NCBI GenBank assembly: GCA_014653815.1
Contig: JACWDZ010000008.1
Location: forward strand, 1 to 33,965
Length of the DNA stretch: 33,965 nt
Source of the DNA: Pelagibacterales bacterium SAG-MED29
Lineage (GTDB): Bacteria > Pseudomonadota > Alphaproteobacteria > Pelagibacterales > Pelagibacteraceae
Reading direction: 5' to 3'
Under the pieces are notes generated by a model. The model saw nothing but the letters and a program-made list of their open reading frames with translations, did not search any database and was not told where the DNA came from. Of this stretch, positions 3,600-17,442 are shown piece after piece; the first letter of the stretch is position 1, and each line of letters begins with the position of its first letter. Made by a program: the position numbers and the translations under genes.

Positions 3600-4556
3600 A
3601 TGAAAGATCTAGTAACTGATATTAAATCTCTCCAAGAAGAAACATTAAAAAACTTACAAAGCTCCAAAGCTATGAATACTGTAAGAGCTTATAAATCTGA
3701 CTTTAAAGATTTTGGACTATTCTGTGTGAAGAATGGACTTAAAAACCTACCCTCAGATCCAAAAATAGTATCTTTGTATTTAACCCATCTTTCTACAAAA
3801 GAAGTAAAATTAAGCACAATTAAGCGTAGATTAGTGTCAATTGGAGTGATCCATAAGATGAAAGGACATTATCTAGACACAAAACATCCGGTAATCGTTG
3901 AGAACTTAATGGGTATAAAACGAAGAAAAGGTACAATTCAAAAAGGAAAAAAACCTATATTAATCAATGATTTAAAAAAAATACTTAAAGTTATTGATGA
4001 GCGAAATATCCAAGATATAAAAAAATTAAGAGATAAATCGATAATATTAATAGGATTTTCAGGAGGCTTTAGAAGAAATGAAATAGTTTCTCTAAACTAT
4101 GAAGACCTAGATTTTGTCCATGAGGGGCTTAAAATTACAGTTAAAAGGTCTAAAACAGACCAATTTGGAGAAGGATCAATAAAGGCTCTACCCTATTTTG
4201 AGAACAGCGTATATTGCCCAGTTACAATTTTACAAAGGTGGTTAAATATATCAAAAATAAGGAAAGGATCGCTATTTAGAAGATTCTCAAAAGGATCAAA
4301 ACTGACAAATGACAGATTAACAGATCAAACAGTAGCTTTATTGATTAAAGATTATTTAAATATTGCTGGAATTGATAGCAAAAATTATTCTGGACATAGT
4401 TTAAGATCAGGTTTTGCAACATCTGCAGCTGAGTCTGGCGCTGAGGAAAGAAGTATAATGGCAATGACAGGGCATAAATCCACTGAAATGGTAAGAAGAT
4501 ATATTAAGGAAGCCAATTTATTTAAAAATAATGCATTAAATAAAATTAAATTATGA
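3600..4556 (+). CDS. Tyrosine recombinase / phage-type integrase
   Basis: A 318-residue tyrosine recombinase with an N-terminal SAM-like core-binding domain (about 10-105) and a C-terminal catalytic domain (about 115-315). All active-site positions are visible: Arg158 in GGFRRNEIVSL, Lys185 in RSKTDQ, His266 and Arg269 in SGHSLRSG, His292 in TGHKS and the nucleophile Tyr301 in RRYIKEA. The protein is complete and should be able to cut and rejoin DNA through a 3'-phosphotyrosine intermediate. Length and layout are XerC/D-like rather than lambda-Int-like, since there is no arm-binding domain. A 16-base dyad with a seven-base spacer lies just upstream and is a candidate core site. The stop overlaps the glycosyltransferase start by four bases. 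Residues 276-304 are duplicated in inverted form at the left window edge. Confidence 0.96.
   Translation: MKDLVTDIKSLQEETLKNLQSSKAMNTVRAYKSDFKDFGLFCVKNGLKNLPSDPKIVSLYLTHLSTKEVKLSTIKRRLVSIGVIHKMKGHYLDTKHPVIVENLMGIKRRKGTIQKGKKPILINDLKKILKVIDERNIQDIKKLRDKSIILIGFSGGFRRNEIVSLNYEDLDFVHEGLKITVKRSKTDQFGEGSIKALPYFENSVYCPVTILQRWLNISKIRKGSLFRRFSKGSKLTNDRLTDQTVALLIKDYLNIAGIDSKNYSGHSLRSGFATSAAESGAEERSIMAMTGHKSTEMVRRYIKEANLFKNNALNKIKL
4425..4511 (+). repeat. Partner arm of the 87-base inverted repeat, inside the integrase gene
   Basis: Identical at every base to the reverse complement of 1-87. It covers the integrase codons from about residue 276 through the catalytic Tyr301. The identity ends at 4425 on the left; on the right it is limited only by the window edge at base 1, so the real repeat may be longer. 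Confidence 0.95.
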
Positions 4557-7028: not shown

Positions 7029-8231
7029 TTATCTTGGGATTTTTCTAATAAAATTCAAAAAATTCTTTTTAATATATTCAAGATCTTTATTTCTTAATCC
7101 ATGATGGCAACCTATTAAAATACCATTTTCCATTACGTTATTGCTGTTTACCTCTGCATTTTTCACCTTTTTATATTTTCTTTTTTTCATTATTGGTTGT
7201 CTTAAAATATTACCTGTAAAAATAGTTCTTGTTTGAATGCCTTTTTTTTCTAGAAATATTTGTAATTTTTGTCTTTTTATTTTAGATGTTGATTTAATTA
7301 TTACAGGATAGGCTAACCAAGGTGTTACCAGACCTTTAAGTTGGACAGGTAATTCAAAAAAATTTGGAAACTTTGAAAAAAAAAATTTTAGGTTTTCAAA
7401 ATTAGAAACTCTATCTTTGATATTTCTTGGTAATTTCTTTAATTGTTCTAATGCAAAAGCAGCTGAGATTTCAGAAGGTAAAAAATTATAACCTATGTCA
7501 TGAAAAATGTATTTTCCATCATAAGGTATACCGTCTACCTTGACACTTAATCTTTTTTTTATTCCTTCAGATTCATTAAAAATAGCTGATGACCTTCCCC
7601 ATCCCCTGAGTAATTTTGCTCTATCATATGTTTTTTTATCGTTAAAACAAACCATGCCACCAAATCCTGCTCCAGTTATTATATGTGAAGCATACATACT
7701 GTTAGTCGTAATATCGGAATAGTTTCCTAAATTTTTTTTATTCAATCTGTAGCCAATAGTATCAGCTGAATCTTCTATAATCTTAAGTCTATTTTTTTTT
7801 GCCAATAAATAAATTTTTTTCCAATCAGGAACATTACCTAATAGGTTTGGTATCATAATTGCTTTAGTCTTTTTATTAATTGCTTTTTTTATTTGATCTA
7901 AATTAGCTATAAAAGTATTTTTACCAACATCTATAAAATGAGGTATTAAACCTAATTGATATATGGGCGCTACAGTTGTCGAAAAAGTTAAAGTTGTGGT
8001 TATAATTTCACTTCCTTTTTTTAAGTTCAAGGATGCAAGAGCTAAAAGATTTGCTGAAGATCCAGAATTTACCATTAGACCATATTTTTTTCCGAATGAT
8101 TTTGATATTTTACTTTCAAGATTTTTGACAGCAGGTCCATCAATTAAAGTAAGAGATTTATCTTTAAGAACTTTTAAAGAAGCTTGAATTTCTTTTTGAC
8201 CATAAACAGCTTTTCCATAATAAATTTTCAT
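7029..8231 (-). CDS. DegT/RfbH-type PLP-dependent sugar enzyme with His in place of the PLP lysine
   Basis: A 400-residue member of the DegT/DnrJ/EryC1 fold, most like the dehydratase branch (RfbH/E1 and ColD). MVNSGSSANLLALASL (53-68) binds the cofactor phosphate, IIEDSADTIG (151-160) supplies the Asp that pairs with the pyridine nitrogen, and YDGKYIFHDIGYNFLPSEI near 238-256 matches the RfbH block. In aminotransferases of this fold a Lys sits six residues into the SF.x.K motif; here the motif is SMYASHIITG and residue 183 is His. In RfbH and ColD that change converts the enzyme from aminotransferase to 3-dehydratase, which removes the C-3 hydroxyl of a 4-keto-6-deoxy sugar. The Cys cluster that binds iron-sulfur in RfbH is absent, which is closer to ColD. 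It probably makes a 3-deoxy sugar for the glycan built here. Confidence 0.85.
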   Translation of the reverse strand: MKIYYGKAVYGQKEIQASLKVLKDKSLTLIDGPAVKNLESKISKSFGKKYGLMVNSGSSANLLALASLNLKKGSEIITTTLTFSTTVAPIYQLGLIPHFIDVGKNTFIANLDQIKKAINKKTKAIMIPNLLGNVPDWKKIYLLAKKNRLKIIEDSADTIGYRLNKKNLGNYSDITTNSMYASHIITGAGFGGMVCFNDKKTYDRAKLLRGWGRSSAIFNESEGIKKRLSVKVDGIPYDGKYIFHDIGYNFLPSEISAAFALEQLKKLPRNIKDRVSNFENLKFFFSKFPNFFELPVQLKGLVTPWLAYPVIIKSTSKIKRQKLQIFLEKKGIQTRTIFTGNILRQPIMKKRKYKKVKNAEVNSNNVMENGILIGCHHGLRNKDLEYIKKNFLNFIRKIPR

Positions 8232-10362: not shown

Positions 10363-10620
10363 ATATTATTGTTTTTAATTTTATTTCTTAATGTTCTATT
10401 TTTCTTTATATAATATTCTCTAGAAATTGCTTTGTTTTTTTGATTTAAAGATCTCTTTATAGATCAATTTCCAAGTTCTTCCTCTGGTAAATTTAGCTCC
10501 TTTTCCAGAATTATGAAGATGCATCCTTTCTTTAATATTTTTAGTATATCCAACGTAAGTAACGGATTTGCCACCCTGAGATTTGAGCATATAAACATAA
10601 TAGCTCATTAATTTCAGCAA
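10359..10620 (-). pseudogene. GIY-YIG nuclease-domain protein (UPF0213-like), frameshifted
   Basis: The frame starting at 10620 gives the GIY-YIG core: YYVYMLKS, TYVGYTKNIKERMHLHN and GAKFTRGRTWKLIYKEIF. It then meets a stop at 10420 after 66 residues, before the family's end. Removing one A from the seven-base run at 10435-10441 restores the frame, which then reads KAISREYYIKKNRTLR and stops at 10359. That restored tail holds the expected catalytic Glu (SREYYIKK) and gives a normal family length of about 86 residues, with a four-base overlap on the next gene. The gene is therefore either inactivated by a one-base insertion or misread at a homopolymer. Proteins of this family are small, putative DNA endonucleases of unsettled function. 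The start overlaps the aldehyde dehydrogenase stop by seven bases. Confidence 0.85.
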
Positions 10621-12053
10621 ATGCCTAGATGAGTATACTTAACATTGAGATAATCTTTAATAGCCATAGAGCCACCTTCTCTGCCATACCCAGTTTGTTT
10701 AATTCCGCCAAATGGGGCCTCTGGAAGAGCTACAACAGCTGTATTTACAGCTACAGTGCCTGTTTCCATTAATTCCGAAGCTTTATGCGCTTGTTTTAAA
10801 TTATTAGTATAGAGGTAACTAGCTAAACCTAAATCATTATTATTTGCTCTTTTGATAACTTCATCAAAATCTTTAAATGAAAGAATAGGAACCAATGGAC
10901 CAAAAGGTTCCTGGTTCATGATAGTAAAATTATCTTTAACATCATCAAATATTGTAGGTTCATAAAAATAACCTTTGTTAAATCCGGCTGGTTTTTTTCC
11001 ACCACAAAGAATTCTCGCACCTTCTTTTTTGGTAGTTTCAACTAAGGCCTCTATTTCATCCAACCTTTTTTTTGTCGTTAATGGACCTAAAATTGTATTT
11101 TTTTCTAATCCATTTCCTATCTTTAATTTTTTTGTTTTTTCGACCATTAATTTTGTAAAATCATTTTTTTTACTTTCATGAATATAAAAGCGACTTGGGG
11201 AAATACAAACTTGACCATTGTTTCTAAATTTTGCAAAAATAGCCATATCAGTAACTTTATTTAAATCAACATCATCAAAGACGATAAAAGGAGAATGACC
11301 ACTTAATTCCATTGTTACTCTTTGAACTTTATCTGCAGCTTTTTTTAAAATAAGTTTTCCAACTCTTGTTGAACCAGTTATTGAAACTTTCTTAATTATG
11401 TTTGAAGATAATAATTGATCTGAAATGTATGCTGGATCACCTGATAAAAGATTAATTACCCCCGGCGGAACGCCTGCTTCGTTACAAATATCAACTAATT
11501 CCATTACAGCACCTGGAGTAATTACATCTGGTTTAACGATTACTGAGCATCCTGCTGATAAAGCTGTAGAAATTTTTCTTGAGGCAAGAGTAATTGGAAA
11601 ATTCCATGGAACTAAAGCAGCAACAACACCTACAGGCTGGTAATAAACATGAATTCTTGTATCGGGTGATCTCCCTTGTAATGTTTCACCGTAGATTCTT
11701 TTTGCTTCTTCAGAGCTCCATTCAAAAATATCTGCAGCACCATTAGCCTCTCCAACACTTTCAGATAGAGGTTTTCCTACTTCCAGTGTTAACCATTTAG
11801 ACAAGGATTCATTTCTTTTTCTTATTAATTCAGAAATTTTTCTTATTATTTTAGATCTTTCCCAAGGAGAAGTATTTTTCCAAATTTCAAATCCTTTAGC
11901 AGCAGATTTAAGACACAAATTAATATCTTCTTTATTAGCTTTCGAAGCTTTACCAATAAGTTCTTCTGTAGCTGGATTTATAACTTCGTAGGTTTCTCCG
12001 CCAGACGAACTTTGCCATTTACCATCTATAAATTGTCCAAATTTTTCGTACAT
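10614..12053 (-). CDS. NAD(P)-dependent aldehyde dehydrogenase
   Basis: A full-length 479-residue aldehyde dehydrogenase. PWNFP (149-153, with Asn151), VIVKPD (Lys174), SITGSTRVGK (nucleotide-binding loop), MELSGHSPF (general base Glu249), NNGQVCISPSR (nucleophile Cys283) and NQEPFGPLVPI are all in place. The C-terminal GYGREGGSMAIKDYLNVKY resembles the succinate-semialdehyde and 2-oxoglutarate-semialdehyde dehydrogenase group (GabD-like), but ALDH substrates are hard to read from sequence, so I give no symbol. In this location it might oxidise succinate semialdehyde or a related aldehyde to the acid in the cytoplasm. It is the first gene of a minus-strand run that continues through the GIY-YIG gene into the glycan cluster. 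The gap upstream of it holds the tRNA-Glu 3'-end remnant. Confidence 0.9.
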   Translation of the reverse strand: MYEKFGQFIDGKWQSSSGGETYEVINPATEELIGKASKANKEDINLCLKSAAKGFEIWKNTSPWERSKIIRKISELIRKRNESLSKWLTLEVGKPLSESVGEANGAADIFEWSSEEAKRIYGETLQGRSPDTRIHVYYQPVGVVAALVPWNFPITLASRKISTALSAGCSVIVKPDVITPGAVMELVDICNEAGVPPGVINLLSGDPAYISDQLLSSNIIKKVSITGSTRVGKLILKKAADKVQRVTMELSGHSPFIVFDDVDLNKVTDMAIFAKFRNNGQVCISPSRFYIHESKKNDFTKLMVEKTKKLKIGNGLEKNTILGPLTTKKRLDEIEALVETTKKEGARILCGGKKPAGFNKGYFYEPTIFDDVKDNFTIMNQEPFGPLVPILSFKDFDEVIKRANNNDLGLASYLYTNNLKQAHKASELMETGTVAVNTAVVALPEAPFGGIKQTGYGREGGSMAIKDYLNVKYTHLGIC

Positions 12054-12086: not shown

Positions 12087-12113
12087 TGGCAGTCCCAAGA
12101 TGAATCGAACCCT
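12087..12113 (-). repeat. Decayed copy of the tRNA-Glu 3' end (candidate att remnant)
   Basis: On the minus strand this reads as the T-arm and acceptor end of a tRNA finishing in GCCA. It matches the tRNA-Glu 3' end (15604-15630) at 22 of 27 positions in the same orientation. The T-stem no longer pairs and no matching 5' acceptor strand, D-arm or anticodon arm was found in the following 70 bases, so it is not a tRNA gene. A partial 3' copy downstream of an intact tRNA is what integration at a tRNA gene leaves behind. Confidence 0.7.
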
Positions 12114-12186
12114 ATTTGGTAGATCTTGACCCTTGGTCTTTTCCGCTTATTAAACAATTATAATAGAATTTTATAGTTAACAAAAA

Positions 12187-13440
12187 CTAAAAATAAATCA
12201 CCAAATAGCCAGAAATAGCTGAAAATAGAAGTATTAAAAATAAAACTACCCAAGAAATTTTTCTAAATTTTAATAGCGATAATTTATCTTCTCGTGGTTT
12301 TTTTAAGATATCGTAAATACCTAGTCCCATGAAATGTCCAATATAAACGGACTCTATAAAACTAACTAAAAGTACGGATATAGCATTAATATATGCGGTA
12401 AAAATAAACCAATCAAAAACGTTCAAGTAGGGCATTTCTGGAATTTTTGCAGTTGCAGCAACAAGATTAAAAGCTACAAGTGATAACACCAAGGTTATGC
12501 AGACAGATATTCTACCGTATTCCATCGGTACAAAAATTGTACAGTAATTTATGATTATAATAAGTAATATTGGAATAATAAATTTAAATACAAAACTGAT
12601 TGAATTTCTATCTATAGTAATTTCAGATTTAACTGATTGTTTTGCATAATCCGAATACAAATCTCCCAAAGGTTCTAAGTCAGGGTAAGTGGTATATTGT
12701 TTTATAGTCCAACCAGGAGATGATATATTTGAAAATTCTAATTTTTTAATATCAGTATTTAATAACTTAAATTTATCTGACATCCCAAATGACAAATTTT
12801 CGAAAATTTGAGATGAAACAGCAATTTTAAAACTTTGTGTATCAAATGGATATTTTTTATAATCAAATTCAGAAGAGTTATATGTTACTTGCTCATCAAA
12901 GTAGAGATATTCAATTGTACCATCAAAATAAATTATAATCTTAGGTGCCACATTTGTCTCAACTTTTGTTGAATTTTCAAATACAATTTTAAAATCAAAA
13001 AATTTTCCATCTGATATAGATTTTTTAAGATCATATTCACAAACAACTATCTTTTGAGTTCCAGCATCTTCTATTTTTTTATTAATGGACTCCATTTCAT
13101 CAGAAAAAAAATCATCTGATATGCTGTTAAAAATTGTTACACCAAGTTTAGGTTCTTTATAAGAAAACGATCTTTGATCAAAATATAGCGACAAATTTGA
13201 ATTAGTTTCATTAACATTTAATCTTTTTAAATTAAAATAAGCTTTTAATTCAACTTCTTCAGATAATTTGTTTTCTTTTCCAAAGGAACTATCTTCATAA
13301 ATTTTATTACAAATCTTTTTTGGAAAAAGTTCACTAAACTCTAATTTTTTTTCTGCCTCTAAAGACGATACTTCAATTGCAAAAGATTTACAAAAAATAG
13401 AGATAAAAAATAATAATGTTATAATAGTTATATTTTTCAT
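12187..13440 (-). CDS. Prokaryotic pentameric ligand-gated ion channel (Cys-loop receptor family)
   Basis: The 417-residue protein has the whole plan of the GLIC/ELIC family. A signal peptide (1-21) precedes a beta-rich extracellular domain (about 25-275), with YPFDTQ (197-202) equivalent to the conserved FPFD.Q of the Cys-loop region; the flanking Cys pair is absent, as in bacterial members. TM1 is about 281-303 with the conserved Pro290, TM2 about 309-331, TM3 about 341-365 and TM4 about 396-416. TM2 lines up with animal receptors as Arg310 at 0', Ser312 at 2', Thr316 at 6' and Leu319 at 9', the usual pore-lining pattern, then continues AFN and IPEMPYL much like GLIC. Glu307 lies at about -3', so cation selectivity is plausible but not certain. 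The start overlaps the glutaminase stop by four bases (ATGA), implying one mRNA. The ligand is unknown; glutamine, glutamate, ammonium or protons are worth considering from context. Confidence 0.9.
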   Translation of the reverse strand: MKNITIITLLFFISIFCKSFAIEVSSLEAEKKLEFSELFPKKICNKIYEDSSFGKENKLSEEVELKAYFNLKRLNVNETNSNLSLYFDQRSFSYKEPKLGVTIFNSISDDFFSDEMESINKKIEDAGTQKIVVCEYDLKKSISDGKFFDFKIVFENSTKVETNVAPKIIIYFDGTIEYLYFDEQVTYNSSEFDYKKYPFDTQSFKIAVSSQIFENLSFGMSDKFKLLNTDIKKLEFSNISSPGWTIKQYTTYPDLEPLGDLYSDYAKQSVKSEITIDRNSISFVFKFIIPILLIIIINYCTIFVPMEYGRISVCITLVLSLVAFNLVAATAKIPEMPYLNVFDWFIFTAYINAISVLLVSFIESVYIGHFMGLGIYDILKKPREDKLSLLKFRKISWVVLFLILLFSAISGYLVIYF

Positions 13441-15443
13441 AATAATTTCTTTAAAAAATTATACACAGATATTCGATTTTCACGTTTAGCTTCATCTAAT
13501 GGGGTTGATTTCCAGCGATCTCTAACATTAATAGGGTGTTTGTAATTTATCAAAAGTTTTACTGTTTCAAGATTACCTTCAGCGGCAGCAAGATGTAGCG
13601 CTGTTCTTGAGTCAAAATTTCCGGCATGTACAGGAACTCCTTTTGCTATTAATTGACGAATACCGGTTATATCATTTCTTGCAGCTGCAAATAAAAGTTC
13701 ACTTACCATTAATTCATCATCATAATTTGCAACTTCATCAGTCTTACCATTCGGGTCTTCTACAAGATGTATTGGCTGCAAAAATTTAATATTTAGCTTA
13801 TCTAATTCTTTTAAGATTTTATCATGATTATTATTTTTTGCATCAAAATATCCATAACCACCCCAACGATCTGGTACAGGCTTAACACCCTGCTTGATTA
13901 AAAACTGTACAACTTCTAACTGACCCTCTGCAGCAGCTAGATGCAATGGAGTTCTCATATCTGAGTTTCCTACACTTAAATCTTTTTGTTCACTTGCTAA
14001 ACGTTCTAACGTCCTTATATCTCCATTACTTGCTGCCCAAATTGCTTCGCCACAACTATTCGCACGCCATCTTGAAATAGGTATTCTAGGATCTATACGA
14101 TCAGCATTAGTCATAGCTCCGTCAAACATGTGAACCAAATATTTTGAAGTAATTCGTTTTGCCATTTCAATTCCGCGCACACTATTACCTTGCTCATCCA
14201 GTCTTGGTGAAAAAATACATATACCCATTAACTGAGGTATAACTAAAAAAACTCCACCACCTACTCCACTTTTTGCTGGTAAACCAACTTCTTGAAAAAA
14301 AGCCCCACTAGCATCATACATACCGCTACTTTGTAAAACAGGTAAGCAGTCTCTTACAGTTTTTTGATTGAGTATTCGACTTTGAGTGATAGGACAAACT
14401 CCATTATTTGCTAATGTTGCAGCTGCAGTAGCGATTTCTGTTGATGTCATTTCTAATGAGCATATGCTAAAATATAGTTTTAAAGCTTCTGTGACTGCCG
14501 GCTCTATATAAAAATCAAATCCATCTTTCTTATTATCTATATCTTTTTTAAGTTTAGTTTTTTTACCAGGAAGATTCCCTGTAGCCATTAATAAATAACC
14601 AATAGCTAAATTATTATGACCTGTAAAATTTTCTTCACGGGCTACATCCTTATTAAATCTTGGAAACTTTGAATCAAACTTACCTTTAGCAGACCATCCT
14701 ATGAGTTTTCCGTATTGTTCTTTTACAAAGCTTAATCTATTCTCATAATTATCATTTGAATTTATAAGACCAGCTGTCATTATTGCTCCAGCATTAATCA
14801 TTGGATTATAAGGTATACTCGTTAATTTTTTTTCAGAATTTGATTTAAGTGAACGAGTTAGTAAAGTTAAGTCATTAAATTGTCGACCAGATGGTTCTTG
14901 TCCCACATGTTTATGTACTAATTCTAAACCTAATTTTTCTAGTACAAAACAATAATTAAAAGGTTTACACAGTGACTGTAAGGAAAAATCTACGTCAAAA
15001 TCACCTTTCTGGTAAACTTGTCCATCTACGGTAACAATAGAAATGCCGAATTGATCCGGATCAACTTTAGCTAGTGGGGGTATATAAGACGCAAGTTCAC
15101 CTGATTTATTTTTAGCAACCTCTTTAAACATTTCATCAATATTTTTAGAAAAATCACTAAAGTCAGGTAAAGCTAATTCCCCACGTAAAGTTTTCTCAAC
15201 TAGTAGACCTGCTGAACTAATAATTTTAATAAAATCATCATAATAAATTTCGTTTGCACAAGTATCCAACTTTTGAAAAAGAGTATACAATCTATTATCA
15301 TTACTTTTTAAGCCAGATTTTAATAAAGCATTCTTTATATTTTTTGTTTTAATTAGATTAGGATTTTTTTTCACACAAAGAATAAAATAAGTCTTTTTCA
15401 CGCTTTGACGTATGTTTGGAATTATAATCATTTGTTGACTCAC
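13437..15443 (-). CDS. glsA: Long-form glutaminase with EF-hand-like and ankyrin domains
   Basis: Hydrolyses L-glutamine to L-glutamate and ammonia. The 668 residues follow the layout of animal kidney-type glutaminase almost end to end. An EF-hand-like helical region (about 30-85) is followed by the linker ALPDFSDF and the serine-dependent catalytic domain (about 115-440), then ankyrin repeats (about 465-540 and 580-668; clear units begin TPLHLAAAEGQLEVV and TALHLAAAEGNLETV). Catalytic residues are present: Tyr120, Ser157 and Lys160 in LQSLCKP, Asn217 in MINAGA, Tyr324, Tyr376 in SGMYD and Val394 in KSGVGGG. Typical bacterial GlsA is about 310 residues with only the catalytic domain. No signal peptide is seen, so it should be cytoplasmic. 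It overlaps the ligand-gated channel gene by four bases. The gene appears richer in G+C than many neighbours, and it lies in an island next to tRNA-Glu. Confidence 0.95.
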   Translation of the reverse strand: MSQQMIIIPNIRQSVKKTYFILCVKKNPNLIKTKNIKNALLKSGLKSNDNRLYTLFQKLDTCANEIYYDDFIKIISSAGLLVEKTLRGELALPDFSDFSKNIDEMFKEVAKNKSGELASYIPPLAKVDPDQFGISIVTVDGQVYQKGDFDVDFSLQSLCKPFNYCFVLEKLGLELVHKHVGQEPSGRQFNDLTLLTRSLKSNSEKKLTSIPYNPMINAGAIMTAGLINSNDNYENRLSFVKEQYGKLIGWSAKGKFDSKFPRFNKDVAREENFTGHNNLAIGYLLMATGNLPGKKTKLKKDIDNKKDGFDFYIEPAVTEALKLYFSICSLEMTSTEIATAAATLANNGVCPITQSRILNQKTVRDCLPVLQSSGMYDASGAFFQEVGLPAKSGVGGGVFLVIPQLMGICIFSPRLDEQGNSVRGIEMAKRITSKYLVHMFDGAMTNADRIDPRIPISRWRANSCGEAIWAASNGDIRTLERLASEQKDLSVGNSDMRTPLHLAAAEGQLEVVQFLIKQGVKPVPDRWGGYGYFDAKNNNHDKILKELDKLNIKFLQPIHLVEDPNGKTDEVANYDDELMVSELLFAAARNDITGIRQLIAKGVPVHAGNFDSRTALHLAAAEGNLETVKLLINYKHPINVRDRWKSTPLDEAKRENRISVYNFLKKLL

Positions 15444-15603
15444 TTATATTTCTCATAGTTAAATTTATTCAAATTTTACTTAGATTAACTATGCTAAAAT
15501 TTTATTCCAGGTATGCAATTTCTAAACAATTATTGACCTTAATCAATTACTTATCTTAAGTTTTAAAAATTAATTATCTAGAATGCTCATTTACTTGAGC
15601 TTT
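15444..15603 (-). promoter_or_regulatory. Leader region of the glutaminase-channel unit
   Basis: These 160 bases separate tRNA-Glu from the glutaminase start and hold no gene. A small hairpin (GCTCA/TGAGC arms, 15585-15600) lies just after the tRNA 3' end and may mark the end of that transcript, though no strong T-run follows it on the minus strand. The rest is A+T-rich and is the likely place for the promoter of the two-gene unit; I could not pick out a -35/-10 pair with confidence. Confidence 0.35.
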
Positions 15604-15678
15604 TGGCGGTCCCACGGGGAATCGAACCCCGATTAGGTGATTGAAAACCACCTGTCCTAACCGTTAGACGATGGGACC
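15604..15678 (-). tRNA. tRNA-Glu (anticodon UUC)
   Basis: The minus strand folds into a complete cloverleaf of 75 bases including an encoded CCA end. The acceptor stem GGTCCCA pairs with TGGGACC, the anticodon stem GGTGG/TCACC closes the loop TTTTCAA with anticodon TTC, and the T-arm is CGGGG/CCCCG around TTCGATT. The recJ stop codon lies immediately upstream with no intervening base, so the tRNA is probably cut from a read-through transcript of that operon. Its 3' end matches a decayed copy at 12087-12113. Confidence 0.98.
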
Positions 15679-17442
15679 TTAGTTTTTCAGGTTCTTATTA
15701 ACAGAAATATCATCGATAATAAACTCCACATTTTTTTGTCCTCTCCATTCATTTAAAGACAATTTTCCCGCTATATTAAATGTATTGTTATTTTTTTTAA
15801 GTAAATAAGCTCCTAATTCATTATCTGCGGCATTAAAAGCAATAGTTTTTATACTTGTTCCTTCAGAACCAATCAAAACAGACTTGATATGCTTATCTCC
15901 AACTATCTTACTGTTAGCAGGTTTCAAATTTTCTATAATAAATCTTGGCTCTGGGTTGCCAGATCCAAATGGAGATAAAACATTAATTTTATCATAAAAA
16001 TCTAAATTAATCGCAGAAGGCGCGATTATACTGTCCAGCAATAATGGTTTTTGTTGATTTAAATCTTCATTAATATTTTTAAATTTACGAAATATAAACT
16101 CTTTAAATTTATCTATATTAGAAATATTTATTGAAAATCCTCCTGCCATTTTATGCCCTCCACCTTTTAATAGAATTTTTTTTTGAGTAGCGGCTATAAT
16201 TGCAGATCCAATATCGAAACCAATAATTGATCTTGCTGAGGCCTTGCCTATATCACCGTTTATAGAAATGATAATAGCTGGCTTATTAAACTTGTCTTTT
16301 AATCTTCCTGCAACAATACCAATAATTCCTTCATGCCAATTGGCGCCATGCAAAATTAAGACTGGATCTTTTAATTTACTTTCTGATTCGATTAAAATCT
16401 TTTCTATAAGATCTTTTTCTAACATTTGCCTTTCCTTATTGTACTGATCTAATTCTGTAGCTAATTTAAAAACTTCTTTTGGATTTGAATTTAATAATAA
16501 ATTTGCACCATGAGAGCACTTGCCAACTCTTCCTCCTGCATTAATTCTTGGTCCTAAAATATATCCTAAATGATAAATAGATGGATTTGCTTCAATCTTA
16601 CAAACATCAAGCAATGTTTTTAAACCAAGATTTTTTTTTGCTTTTAAAATTTTTAAACCTTGTTTGACAATAGCTCTATTCAAGCCAACTAAAGGCACAA
16701 CATCACAAACAGTTCCTAGAGAAACTAAATCTAAATAATTGATTAAGTTTGGTTCATCTATTAAATTTTTTTTAAACCAATCAATTAATCTAAGTTCTCT
16801 ATTTATTGAAACTAAAAACATAAATGATACACCCGCCGCACATAAGTATTTAAGATCAGATTTGTCATCCAATCGATTTGGATTAACAACCGAATAAGCT
16901 TTTGGTAAATTAATTTCGGATTGATGATGGTCTAAAACAATAACATCTATATTTTTACTTTTGGCATAATCAATAGCTTGGAATGATAATGTTCCACAAT
17001 CGACAGTAAAGATGACTTTAACATTTTTATCAATTAATTTCTTAAAACCTTTAATGGAAGGTCCATAACCTTCGGTTTTTCGATCTGGAATATATATTTC
17101 ATAAGATAATTTTAATTCATCAAAATATCTTCCTAGTAAAGCTGTTGAAGTAGCTCCATCCACATCGTAGTCACCAAAAACTCCTATTTTTTCTTTATTT
17201 TTAATTGCCTGCAATGTTCTTAAGGACGACTTTTCCATATCTAATAAGTTGTTTGGGTTGGGTAAAAAATTCTTAATCGAAGGATTTAAAAAACTACTAA
17301 TATCTTCTTTTTTGATATTTCTTAATGTAAGCAATTTTGCTGTAATTTCGTCAAGAGAAAATGTATCTTTTAAATAAATTATTTTTTCTTGATCAAATTT
17401 CTTTAAGATCCAATTTTTTCCAGTAACTGATACTGAATTCAT
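15679..17442 (-). CDS. recJ: Single-stranded-DNA-specific exonuclease RecJ
   Basis: A 587-residue DHH-family 5'-to-3' exonuclease acting on single-stranded DNA in recombination and repair. The N-terminal half has the phosphoesterase motifs: GDYDVDGATSTALL near residue 92, FTVDCGT near 145, the DHH signature in VIVLDHHQSE near 168 and SLGTVCDVVPL near 242. The DHHA1 part follows with GGHKMAGGFSI near 427, and an OB-type domain forms the C-terminus. Length is normal for RecJ. The start overlaps the glpX stop by four bases, making it the last protein gene of an argC-lipoprotein-hom-glpX-recJ run. The stop codon abuts the tRNA-Glu gene with no gap. Confidence 0.97.
   Translation of the reverse strand: MNSVSVTGKNWILKKFDQEKIIYLKDTFSLDEITAKLLTLRNIKKEDISSFLNPSIKNFLPNPNNLLDMEKSSLRTLQAIKNKEKIGVFGDYDVDGATSTALLGRYFDELKLSYEIYIPDRKTEGYGPSIKGFKKLIDKNVKVIFTVDCGTLSFQAIDYAKSKNIDVIVLDHHQSEINLPKAYSVVNPNRLDDKSDLKYLCAAGVSFMFLVSINRELRLIDWFKKNLIDEPNLINYLDLVSLGTVCDVVPLVGLNRAIVKQGLKILKAKKNLGLKTLLDVCKIEANPSIYHLGYILGPRINAGGRVGKCSHGANLLLNSNPKEVFKLATELDQYNKERQMLEKDLIEKILIESESKLKDPVLILHGANWHEGIIGIVAGRLKDKFNKPAIIISINGDIGKASARSIIGFDIGSAIIAATQKKILLKGGGHKMAGGFSINISNIDKFKEFIFRKFKNINEDLNQQKPLLLDSIIAPSAINLDFYDKINVLSPFGSGNPEPRFIIENLKPANSKIVGDKHIKSVLIGSEGTSIKTIAFNAADNELGAYLLKKNNNTFNIAGKLSLNEWRGQKNVEFIIDDISVNKNLKN

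Follow-up and report, generated by a model that had tools for sequence, protein, structure and literature searches.

The question raised by this locus is why a bacterium of SAR11, one of the ocean's most abundant groups and one with very small genomes, should carry a long glutaminase of animal type and a pentameric ligand-gated ion channel as one overlapping gene pair, and whether the enzyme and the channel work together. The window, by which we mean the whole stretch of 33,965 nucleotides that was analysed, contains both genes, their flanks and a tRNA gene (Table 1). Our preferred reading is that the pair is, quite likely, the two-gene cargo of a tRNA-targeting element of about 3.5 kb that lacks its own integrase, and that the genes are separately useful accessory genes rather than an enzyme that feeds a channel.

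Table 1. Features of the glutaminase and channel locus, in window coordinates
Feature	Positions	Strand	Basis
Pentameric ligand-gated channel homologue, 417 aa, ATG start	12187..13440	-	ORF complete and open
Long-form glutaminase, 668 aa, GTG start	13437..15443	-	ORF complete and open
Overlap of glutaminase stop and channel start, 4 nt	13437..13440	-	ORF coordinates
EF-hand_14-like N-terminal region (aa 24-93)	15165..15374	-	Pfam EF-hand_14
Glutaminase catalytic domain (aa 115-440)	14124..15101	-	PF04960
First ankyrin block (about aa 468-550)	13794..14042	-	Pfam; limits by eye; inside human GLS alignment
Second ankyrin block (aa 583-664)	13452..13697	-	Resembles first block; past end of human alignment
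tRNA-Glu (TTC), insertion site; cassette begins at its 3′ end	15604..15678	-	ARAGORN, Rfam tRNA
Inserted cassette, about 3.5 kb	12087..15603	.	Occupied and empty sites compared
Degenerate copy of tRNA-Glu 3′ end, far cassette boundary	12087..12120	-	28/35 alignment columns identical
RecJ, conserved flank, not cargo	15679..17442	-	Pfam; relatives' loci
Aldehyde dehydrogenase (ALDH), conserved flank, not cargo	10614..12053	-	Pfam; relatives' loci

The preliminary description had identified the first gene of the pair as a complete glutaminase of 668 residues with an EF-hand-like region, a catalytic domain and ankyrin repeats, and this identification holds. The reading frame is complete, the Pfam Glutaminase family matches at E 4.6e-94 (PF04960, 315.2 bits against a cut-off of 27), NCBIfam TIGR03814 matches at 282.4 bits (cut-off 255.4), and the closest solved structure is human kidney-type glutaminase (E 1.8e-93, residues 35–554 aligned). 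The EF-hand_14 match, at 23.4 bits, lies just below its Pfam cut-off of 23.7. Ankyrin families exceed their Pfam cut-offs, with PF12796 reaching 76 bits over two stretches; the repeats are therefore present as described, with the correction that they form two blocks and that the human alignment stops after the first. All the active-site residues are present (Y120, S157, K160, N217, E271, N278, Y324, Y376 and V394), and these nine, whose human equivalents we take to be Y249, S286, K289, N335, E381, N388, Y414, Y466 and V484, are invariant across 11 SAR11 copies. Inspection by eye of the 11 SAR11 copies revealed no signal peptide, the window copy being assessed by hydropathy as well. Judging from the conserved active-site residues, the enzyme would most likely act in the cytoplasm, converting glutamine to glutamate and ammonium. 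As in animal kidney-type glutaminase (GLS/KGA), the putative EF-hand-like region of the window enzyme comes first, followed by the catalytic domain and an ankyrin block, and the active-site residues are kept; the window enzyme differs in having a second ankyrin block and about 20 additional residues, split into three pieces, between the AIGYLLMATG and LYFSICS stretches.

The second gene had been described as a complete pentameric ligand-gated channel that overlaps the glutaminase gene by 4 nt, which is borne out by the open frame of 417 residues and by matches to TIGR00860, GLIC and ELIC. The protein has a signal-like start, an extracellular domain and four hydrophobic segments by hydropathy. 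There was no Pfam match at 1e-3, the ligand-binding domain (LBD) model scoring 15.6 bits (cut-off 26) and the membrane model 14.7 (cut-off 28.1), both below; NCBIfam TIGR00860 gave E 2.5e-12, far under the curated cut-off, and the GLIC and ELIC chains were matched at about 3e-11 (2.9e-11 with the single sequence). Every one of the 14 members of the SAR11 channel family matches the Pfam LBD model when E values up to 1 are admitted, the best being 5.5e-5; 11 of the 14 match the membrane model, and a profile of the family matches ELIC and other channel entries at E 1.8e-13 to 5e-13.

The similarities to GLIC and ELIC lie in the PFD motif of the loop (P198-F199-D200) and the arginine before the first membrane segment (R278), which are invariant in 14 of 14 family members, and in the four hydrophobic segments and the proline-bearing loop past the second. 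Unlike those channels, the SAR11 protein is too divergent for the Pfam cut-offs and its family has an invariant pair of cysteines, C44 and C134, that lie away from the usual loop in 14 of 14 members; the remaining cysteines of the protein are C17, within the signal-like start, and two located in hydrophobic segments, C300 and C314. In pairwise alignments the acidic residue at the inner mouth precedes its GLIC counterpart by one position and its ELIC counterpart by two, and it is missing from one branch of the family (L077/L078). The label "Cys-loop-type" that had been given to the channel has to be dropped: the loop, FDYKKYPFDTQSF, has no flanking cysteines, and the bracketing cysteines, which could form a disulfide as in animal Cys-loop receptors, are absent from all 14 family members. 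The AlphaFold model of the channel is poor (mean pLDDT 42.5). From what its family does, the channel would most likely reside in the inner membrane with a periplasmic sensor domain and be opened by some small dissolved molecule.

Could the two proteins nevertheless form one functional module, in which the channel senses an external amino acid or amine, the co-made glutaminase handles internal glutamine, and membrane potential is coupled to nitrogen use? We regard this as unlikely. In its favour, the genes are adjacent on the same strand with a 4-nt overlap and were inserted without any other gene. In addition, channel relatives in two genomes lie directly 3′ of TRAP transporter genes (L066 by Pfam, L070 by a match of gene lengths), so this channel group can be tied to solute uptake. 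As evidence of function the overlap was rejected and counts for little, since overlaps of 4 nt are commonplace in SAR11: 6 of the 14 co-directional neighbour pairs at window positions 515–21272, this pair included, show one, as do 29 of the 190 close co-directional pairs among ORFs called mechanically in 20 SAR11 stretches (L045–L064). The enzyme and the channel's sensor domain are moreover expected on opposite sides of the membrane; because the enzyme has no signal peptide, its products would be formed on the side opposite the expected ligand-binding domain.

Recurrence of the pairing had been set beforehand as a test, and among the SAR11 genomes sampled only the window genome has both genes together, so the proposed functional link between enzyme and channel is not supported. 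In the DNA examined, a glutaminase partner was found at none of 22 other SAR11 channel loci, of which 20 could be seen on the upstream side, and a channel partner at none of 10 other SAR11 glutaminase loci. Channel genes occur in many unrelated contexts across the SAR11 loci sampled, with no conserved neighbour seen, some neighbours having been checked with Pfam. Six of the 11 SAR11 glutaminases are located between glutamine synthetase and a SUF operon, and no channel lies beside them in the DNA examined, which counts against the module; as this is a non-tRNA place, the location also weighs against our cargo view. A sample of 299 genomes from the phylum contains glutaminase matches at E 1e-40 in 10 genomes besides G000, covering at most about residues 77–483 (some frames reach 622 aa or more), and Neur_chan_LBD matches in five genomes, none among the glutaminase-matching ones, a weak test of pairing because that model misses the window channel itself. 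No paper joining SAR11 with a ligand-gated ion channel was found in the openly licensed literature.

Comparison with relatives at the tRNA-Glu site points to how the pair arrived. RecJ, tRNA-Glu and ALDH are contiguous, giving an empty site, in 7 of 15 same-genus loci (L110, L111, L112, L115, L116, L117 and L125), while the remaining eight hold unrelated genes; neither a glutaminase nor a channel was present at the site in any of the 15, in the DNA examined. The alternative cargo is a 2-hydroxyacid dehydrogenase in L113, a group of three small ORFs bounded by a tRNA-end repeat in L114, and about 10–12 kb of other genes in six genomes (L119–L124), one of which, L121, carries an exact 36-nt repeat. 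In the window the tRNA-end repeat scored 20, whereas 2000 base shuffles of the spacer reached at most 13 and the next best unrelated place in the window 12; a second scoring run gave 19 with a shuffle maximum of 12. Two features of the site weigh against the cargo view: the window repeat is degenerate, and the intact tRNA-Glu has the same sequence as in the empty-site relatives, so there is no sign of a foreign tRNA end brought by the element. The locus has the marks of a tRNA-integrated element, with a tRNA at one border, a degenerate copy of that tRNA's 3′ end at the opposite border and an empty site in relatives. The cassette consists of two genes with no integrase among them, and the one Phage_integrase match in the genome lies in a gene common to relatives, which also counts against the cargo view. 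Searches for RNA families at gathering cut-offs, in six sources, returned only tRNAs and one RNase P, and no regulatory RNA.

Glutaminase genes are also found directly 3′ of other tRNA genes, namely tRNA-Val (G204), tRNA-Ser (G055 and G079) and a tRNA-Glu of another family (G075), and none was found in flanks of up to 1.5 kb at 19, 18 and 19 related loci, respectively. In the glutaminase tree the window copy groups with that of G204 (100/100) and is separated from the two that belong to its own genus. Against the cargo view, the insertions at tRNA-Ser and the other-family tRNA-Glu showed no repeat of the tRNA end that exceeded the null; at tRNA-Val the top score, 13 where shuffles reached 12 at most, falls within the glutaminase gene and probably arose by chance. 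Because the pair is inserted beside a tRNA gene and its members are apart in the sampled relatives, it looks like travelling cargo. We propose that, in a single SAR11 lineage, an element entered the genome at the 3′ end of tRNA-Glu and would have left two copies of that end, one in the working tRNA and one, decayed at the far border, that may represent an attachment site. As the cassette has no integrase, it was probably mobilised in trans by a tyrosine recombinase. From their position the two genes may constitute an operon.

The joint insertion of two genes could itself mean joint selection, which is a further consideration against the cargo view. A broader proposal is that SAR11 has a class of very small tRNA cassettes, integrase-less and with only one to three genes, by which animal-like genes for signalling and nitrogen use are moved from one tRNA site to another, and that channel and glutaminase were here co-selected as a portable module for nitrogen sensing and use; it seems to us rather doubtful. 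We give still less credence to a chance and transient association, in which the channel entered a glutaminase cassette, or the reverse, and one gene is heading for loss with no operon function. The single genome, the differing G+C of the two genes (0.327 and 0.254) and the fact that the closest relatives of the channel (77% and 74% identical) occur in other contexts would suit such an accident, but both frames are open with key residues intact and the exact overlap suggests some time together. An assembly or amplification chimera is most improbable: the source SAR11 genome is fragmentary (46 contigs, 80% complete) and the record names of close relatives are of the kind given to single-cell genomes, but the two genes, both intact, meet in a 4-nt overlap, and the expected tRNA and tRNA-end remnant flank the pair exactly at the relatives' empty site.

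Earlier papers treat SAR11 and marine genomic islands (PMC2217521, PMC3478194), and such tRNA insertions may already have been noticed. Like the tRNA-associated additive islands and tycheposons (PMC10872708), the cassette has a tRNA gene at one border, tRNA-end repeats and metabolic cargo. The size given for tycheposons in that paper is 4–200 kb. At about 3.5 kb and with no recombinase inside, the SAR11 cassette is not a tycheposon, an element with a tyrosine recombinase of its own. The transfer of phnCDEubiE in Pelagibacterales (PMC12416821) likewise places an accessory operon beside tRNA genes in SAR11, but there tyrosine recombinases adjoin the operon, and none lies in the glutaminase–channel cassette. 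A phage origin was considered and rejected, short peptide pattern scans having found no relative of either protein in viral contigs and a search with only the channel as query having found no relative in phage records. A plasmid origin was also rejected; with the glutaminase as the only query, 209 plasmid records gave matches, but in no record did a single place cover 80% of the query.

The movement of an animal-type long glutaminase among tRNA sites in SAR11, together with a divergent channel family found in many contexts, offers a testable case. The cassette bears on how a streamlined genome acquires nitrogen and signalling genes, and a bacterial long glutaminase on the origin of the ankyrin-bearing animal enzyme, while the SAR11 channel family consists of relatives of neurotransmitter receptors with an unusual pair of cysteines.

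Two intact genes, encoding a glutaminase and a homologue of the pentameric ligand-gated ion channels, lie together in one insertion beside a tRNA-Glu gene, and this insertion is absent from the relatives read. The preliminary description had presented them as an overlapping pair and this was borne out, with 4 nt shared between the end of the glutaminase frame and the start of the channel frame. Homologues come from genomes named as SAR11 (Pelagibacterales).

Coordinates of the two genes and of comparable features. L-numbers are fetched loci and G-numbers are sampled genomes, G000 being that of the window.
Feature	Location	Strand	Remark
Insertion between tRNA-Glu and aldehyde dehydrogenase gene	window 12087..15603		about 3.5 kb
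Glutaminase, 668 aa	window 15443..13437	minus	intact gene
Channel homologue, 417 aa	window 13440..12187	minus	intact gene, directly after glutaminase
Gene with Phage_integrase match	window 3600-4556		match at 3966-4514
2-hydroxyacid dehydrogenase	L113		cargo at tRNA-Glu site
Three small ORFs	L114		cargo at tRNA-Glu site, closed by a tRNA-end repeat
Other genes, ~10-12 kb	L119-L124 (six)		cargo at tRNA-Glu site
Glutaminase between SUF iron-sulfur operon and convergent glutamine synthetase gene	L046-L051		6 genomes; Pfam in L046 only
Glutaminase directly 3' of tRNA-Glu	window
Glutaminase directly 3' of tRNA-Val	G204
Glutaminase directly 3' of tRNA-Ser	G055, G079
Glutaminase directly 3' of tRNA-Glu of another family	G075
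Channel relatives directly after TRAP transporter genes	L066:3628-9200; L070:2113-7699		two genomes
Second, distant channel homologue, 490 aa	L126:9431-10903 (G000:C1)		23% identical

We read 15 same-genus loci, hand-picked from those 59 genomes, out of 81, in which RecJ was present (16 were fetched, one of them too short). In seven the RecJ, tRNA-Glu and aldehyde dehydrogenase genes are contiguous, while in the window both genes sit exactly between the latter two. Just before the aldehyde dehydrogenase gene there is a decayed copy of the tRNA-Glu 3' end with 28 of 35 alignment columns identical; it scores 20, whereas 2000 shuffles of the spacer's bases never exceeded 13 and the next-best unrelated position of the window scores 12. 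The remaining eight loci carry other genes at the same site, and L121 has an exact 36-nt repeat there. The tRNA-Glu of the window is identical to those of the empty sites L110-L112, so nothing in it points to a tRNA end of foreign origin. L117 holds no cargo, and the 3' half of its tRNA-Glu (3' end at 7919) differs from its relatives and resembles the L114/L121 type, a possible trace of an earlier, excised element. Stretches of ~1-2 kb closed by near-exact tRNA 3'-end repeats were also seen, at tRNA-Glu (L114, L121), tRNA-Met (L045) and tRNA-Thr (L056, L072); their proteins are mostly of no known function, and they may represent a more widespread kind of minimal tRNA cassette in SAR11.

The insertion contains no integrase. 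The window corresponds to contig C45 in a genome of 951,358 bases and 46 contigs (80% complete). The sole Phage_integrase match of this genome lies in a gene that nine of the 15 same-genus loci also have (70-96% identity), probably a housekeeping recombinase. Together these suggest that the cassette would be mobilised in trans by a tyrosine recombinase. In Methylophilaceae, tycheposons and islands that are flanked by tRNA genes and carry tRNA-end repeats have been described (PMC10872708), and in Pelagibacterales a phosphonate operon that adjoins both tRNA genes and tyrosine recombinases (PMC12416821).

The pair did not recur. We searched for the channel in two overlapping samples, 297 genomes of the order and 397 of the family (the latter with E up to 1e-20), and in genome contigs (15 loci). 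Matches were found in 29 of the 297, 20 of them solely to distant channels with open frames of ~380-700 aa, and in 11 of the 397. Channels at least 44% identical to that of the window occur in nine genomes of the order, its own included. After loci with contigs of equal length were merged there were 22 such loci besides the window, and none had a glutaminase in the DNA fetched; the upstream side is lost at a contig end in two (L079, L134) and reaches only ~0.4-0.7 kb at some (L062, L065/L131). The glutaminase, searched in the order sample only, is full-length in 11 of 297 genomes, two fragments near E 1e-3 being left out, and no channel adjoined it in the DNA fetched from the other 10. Both genes are present on different contigs in G204 and G247, as are the glutaminase and a distant channel in G055 and G079. 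This leaves a single genome in which the pair is known. A literature search found no paper on a glutaminase-channel pair or on SAR11 channels.

The identification as a long-form glutaminase held: the catalytic domain and ankyrin repeats score above the Pfam cut-offs, EF-hand_14 falls just short, and the best-aligned solved structure is human kidney-type glutaminase. Nine residues corresponding to the human active site are kept and are invariant across 11 SAR11 copies. Unlike the human enzyme, the glutaminase of the window has two similar ankyrin blocks, and the alignment stops after the first. A review places the gain of ankyrin repeats early in glutaminase evolution and describes a conserved filament interface absent from bacterial glutaminases (PMC13142944).

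The 11 copies occupy five kinds of place, with flanking genes assigned by Pfam in L045, L046 and L054, by blastp for RecJ in L052, and otherwise from agreement in the length and order of genes. At the tRNA-Val, tRNA-Ser and other-family tRNA-Glu sites the flank of 19, 18 and 19 related loci (from the first 20 of each search; up to 1.5 kb) yielded no glutaminase, and no convincing tRNA repeat was found at these three glutaminase sites. At the RpoD site tRNA-Val was seen in 15 of 19 relatives, 1.3 kb away in one, with no tRNA in reach in four; in eight, tRNA-Met follows within ~75 nt with nothing between. Every relative of the tRNA-Ser and other-family tRNA-Glu sites has the tRNA, which lies 0.8 kb off in L193. 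In a tree the window glutaminase groups with the G204 copy (support 100/100) and not with the two copies from its own genus.

The second gene had been called a Cys-loop-type channel. Significant matches to GLIC and ELIC place it in the pentameric family, as do four hydrophobic segments, a basic residue ahead of the first of the membrane segments and the PFD motif in the loop, but the Cys-loop cysteines are absent. It scores under the Pfam cut-offs and its predicted structure was too poor for use; all 14 homologues share C44 and C134. A distant homologue lies elsewhere in the same genome, and genes with open frames of ~490-570 aa occur in 13 other genomes of the order search.

The channel gene moves too. 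Relatives directly follow DctP, DctQ and DctM, adjoined by an iron-type alcohol dehydrogenase (by Pfam in L066 and matching lengths in L070), or an ATP-grasp gene in three genomes (L067 by Pfam; L068 and L069 by matching lengths), and at the remaining loci various other genes. In L055, L056 and L072 the channel lies upstream of tRNA-Leu, an arrangement unlike the tRNA placement of the glutaminase. An earlier study reports that bacterial channels of this type adjoin periplasmic binding protein and Cache genes, and its main text lacks the word stem 'glutamin' (PMC549065).

A functional link between enzyme and channel had been proposed. The overlap is weak evidence for it, because overlaps of 4 nt occur in 29 of 190 closely spaced co-directional pairs. 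The glutaminase would be cytoplasmic, and the channel would lie in the inner membrane with a periplasmic sensor, a topology that makes it unlikely that the enzyme directly supplies the channel's ligand. The synapse-like pairing is probably a coincidence of cargo, and the more interesting fact is a tRNA cassette in which a long glutaminase sits beside a divergent channel.
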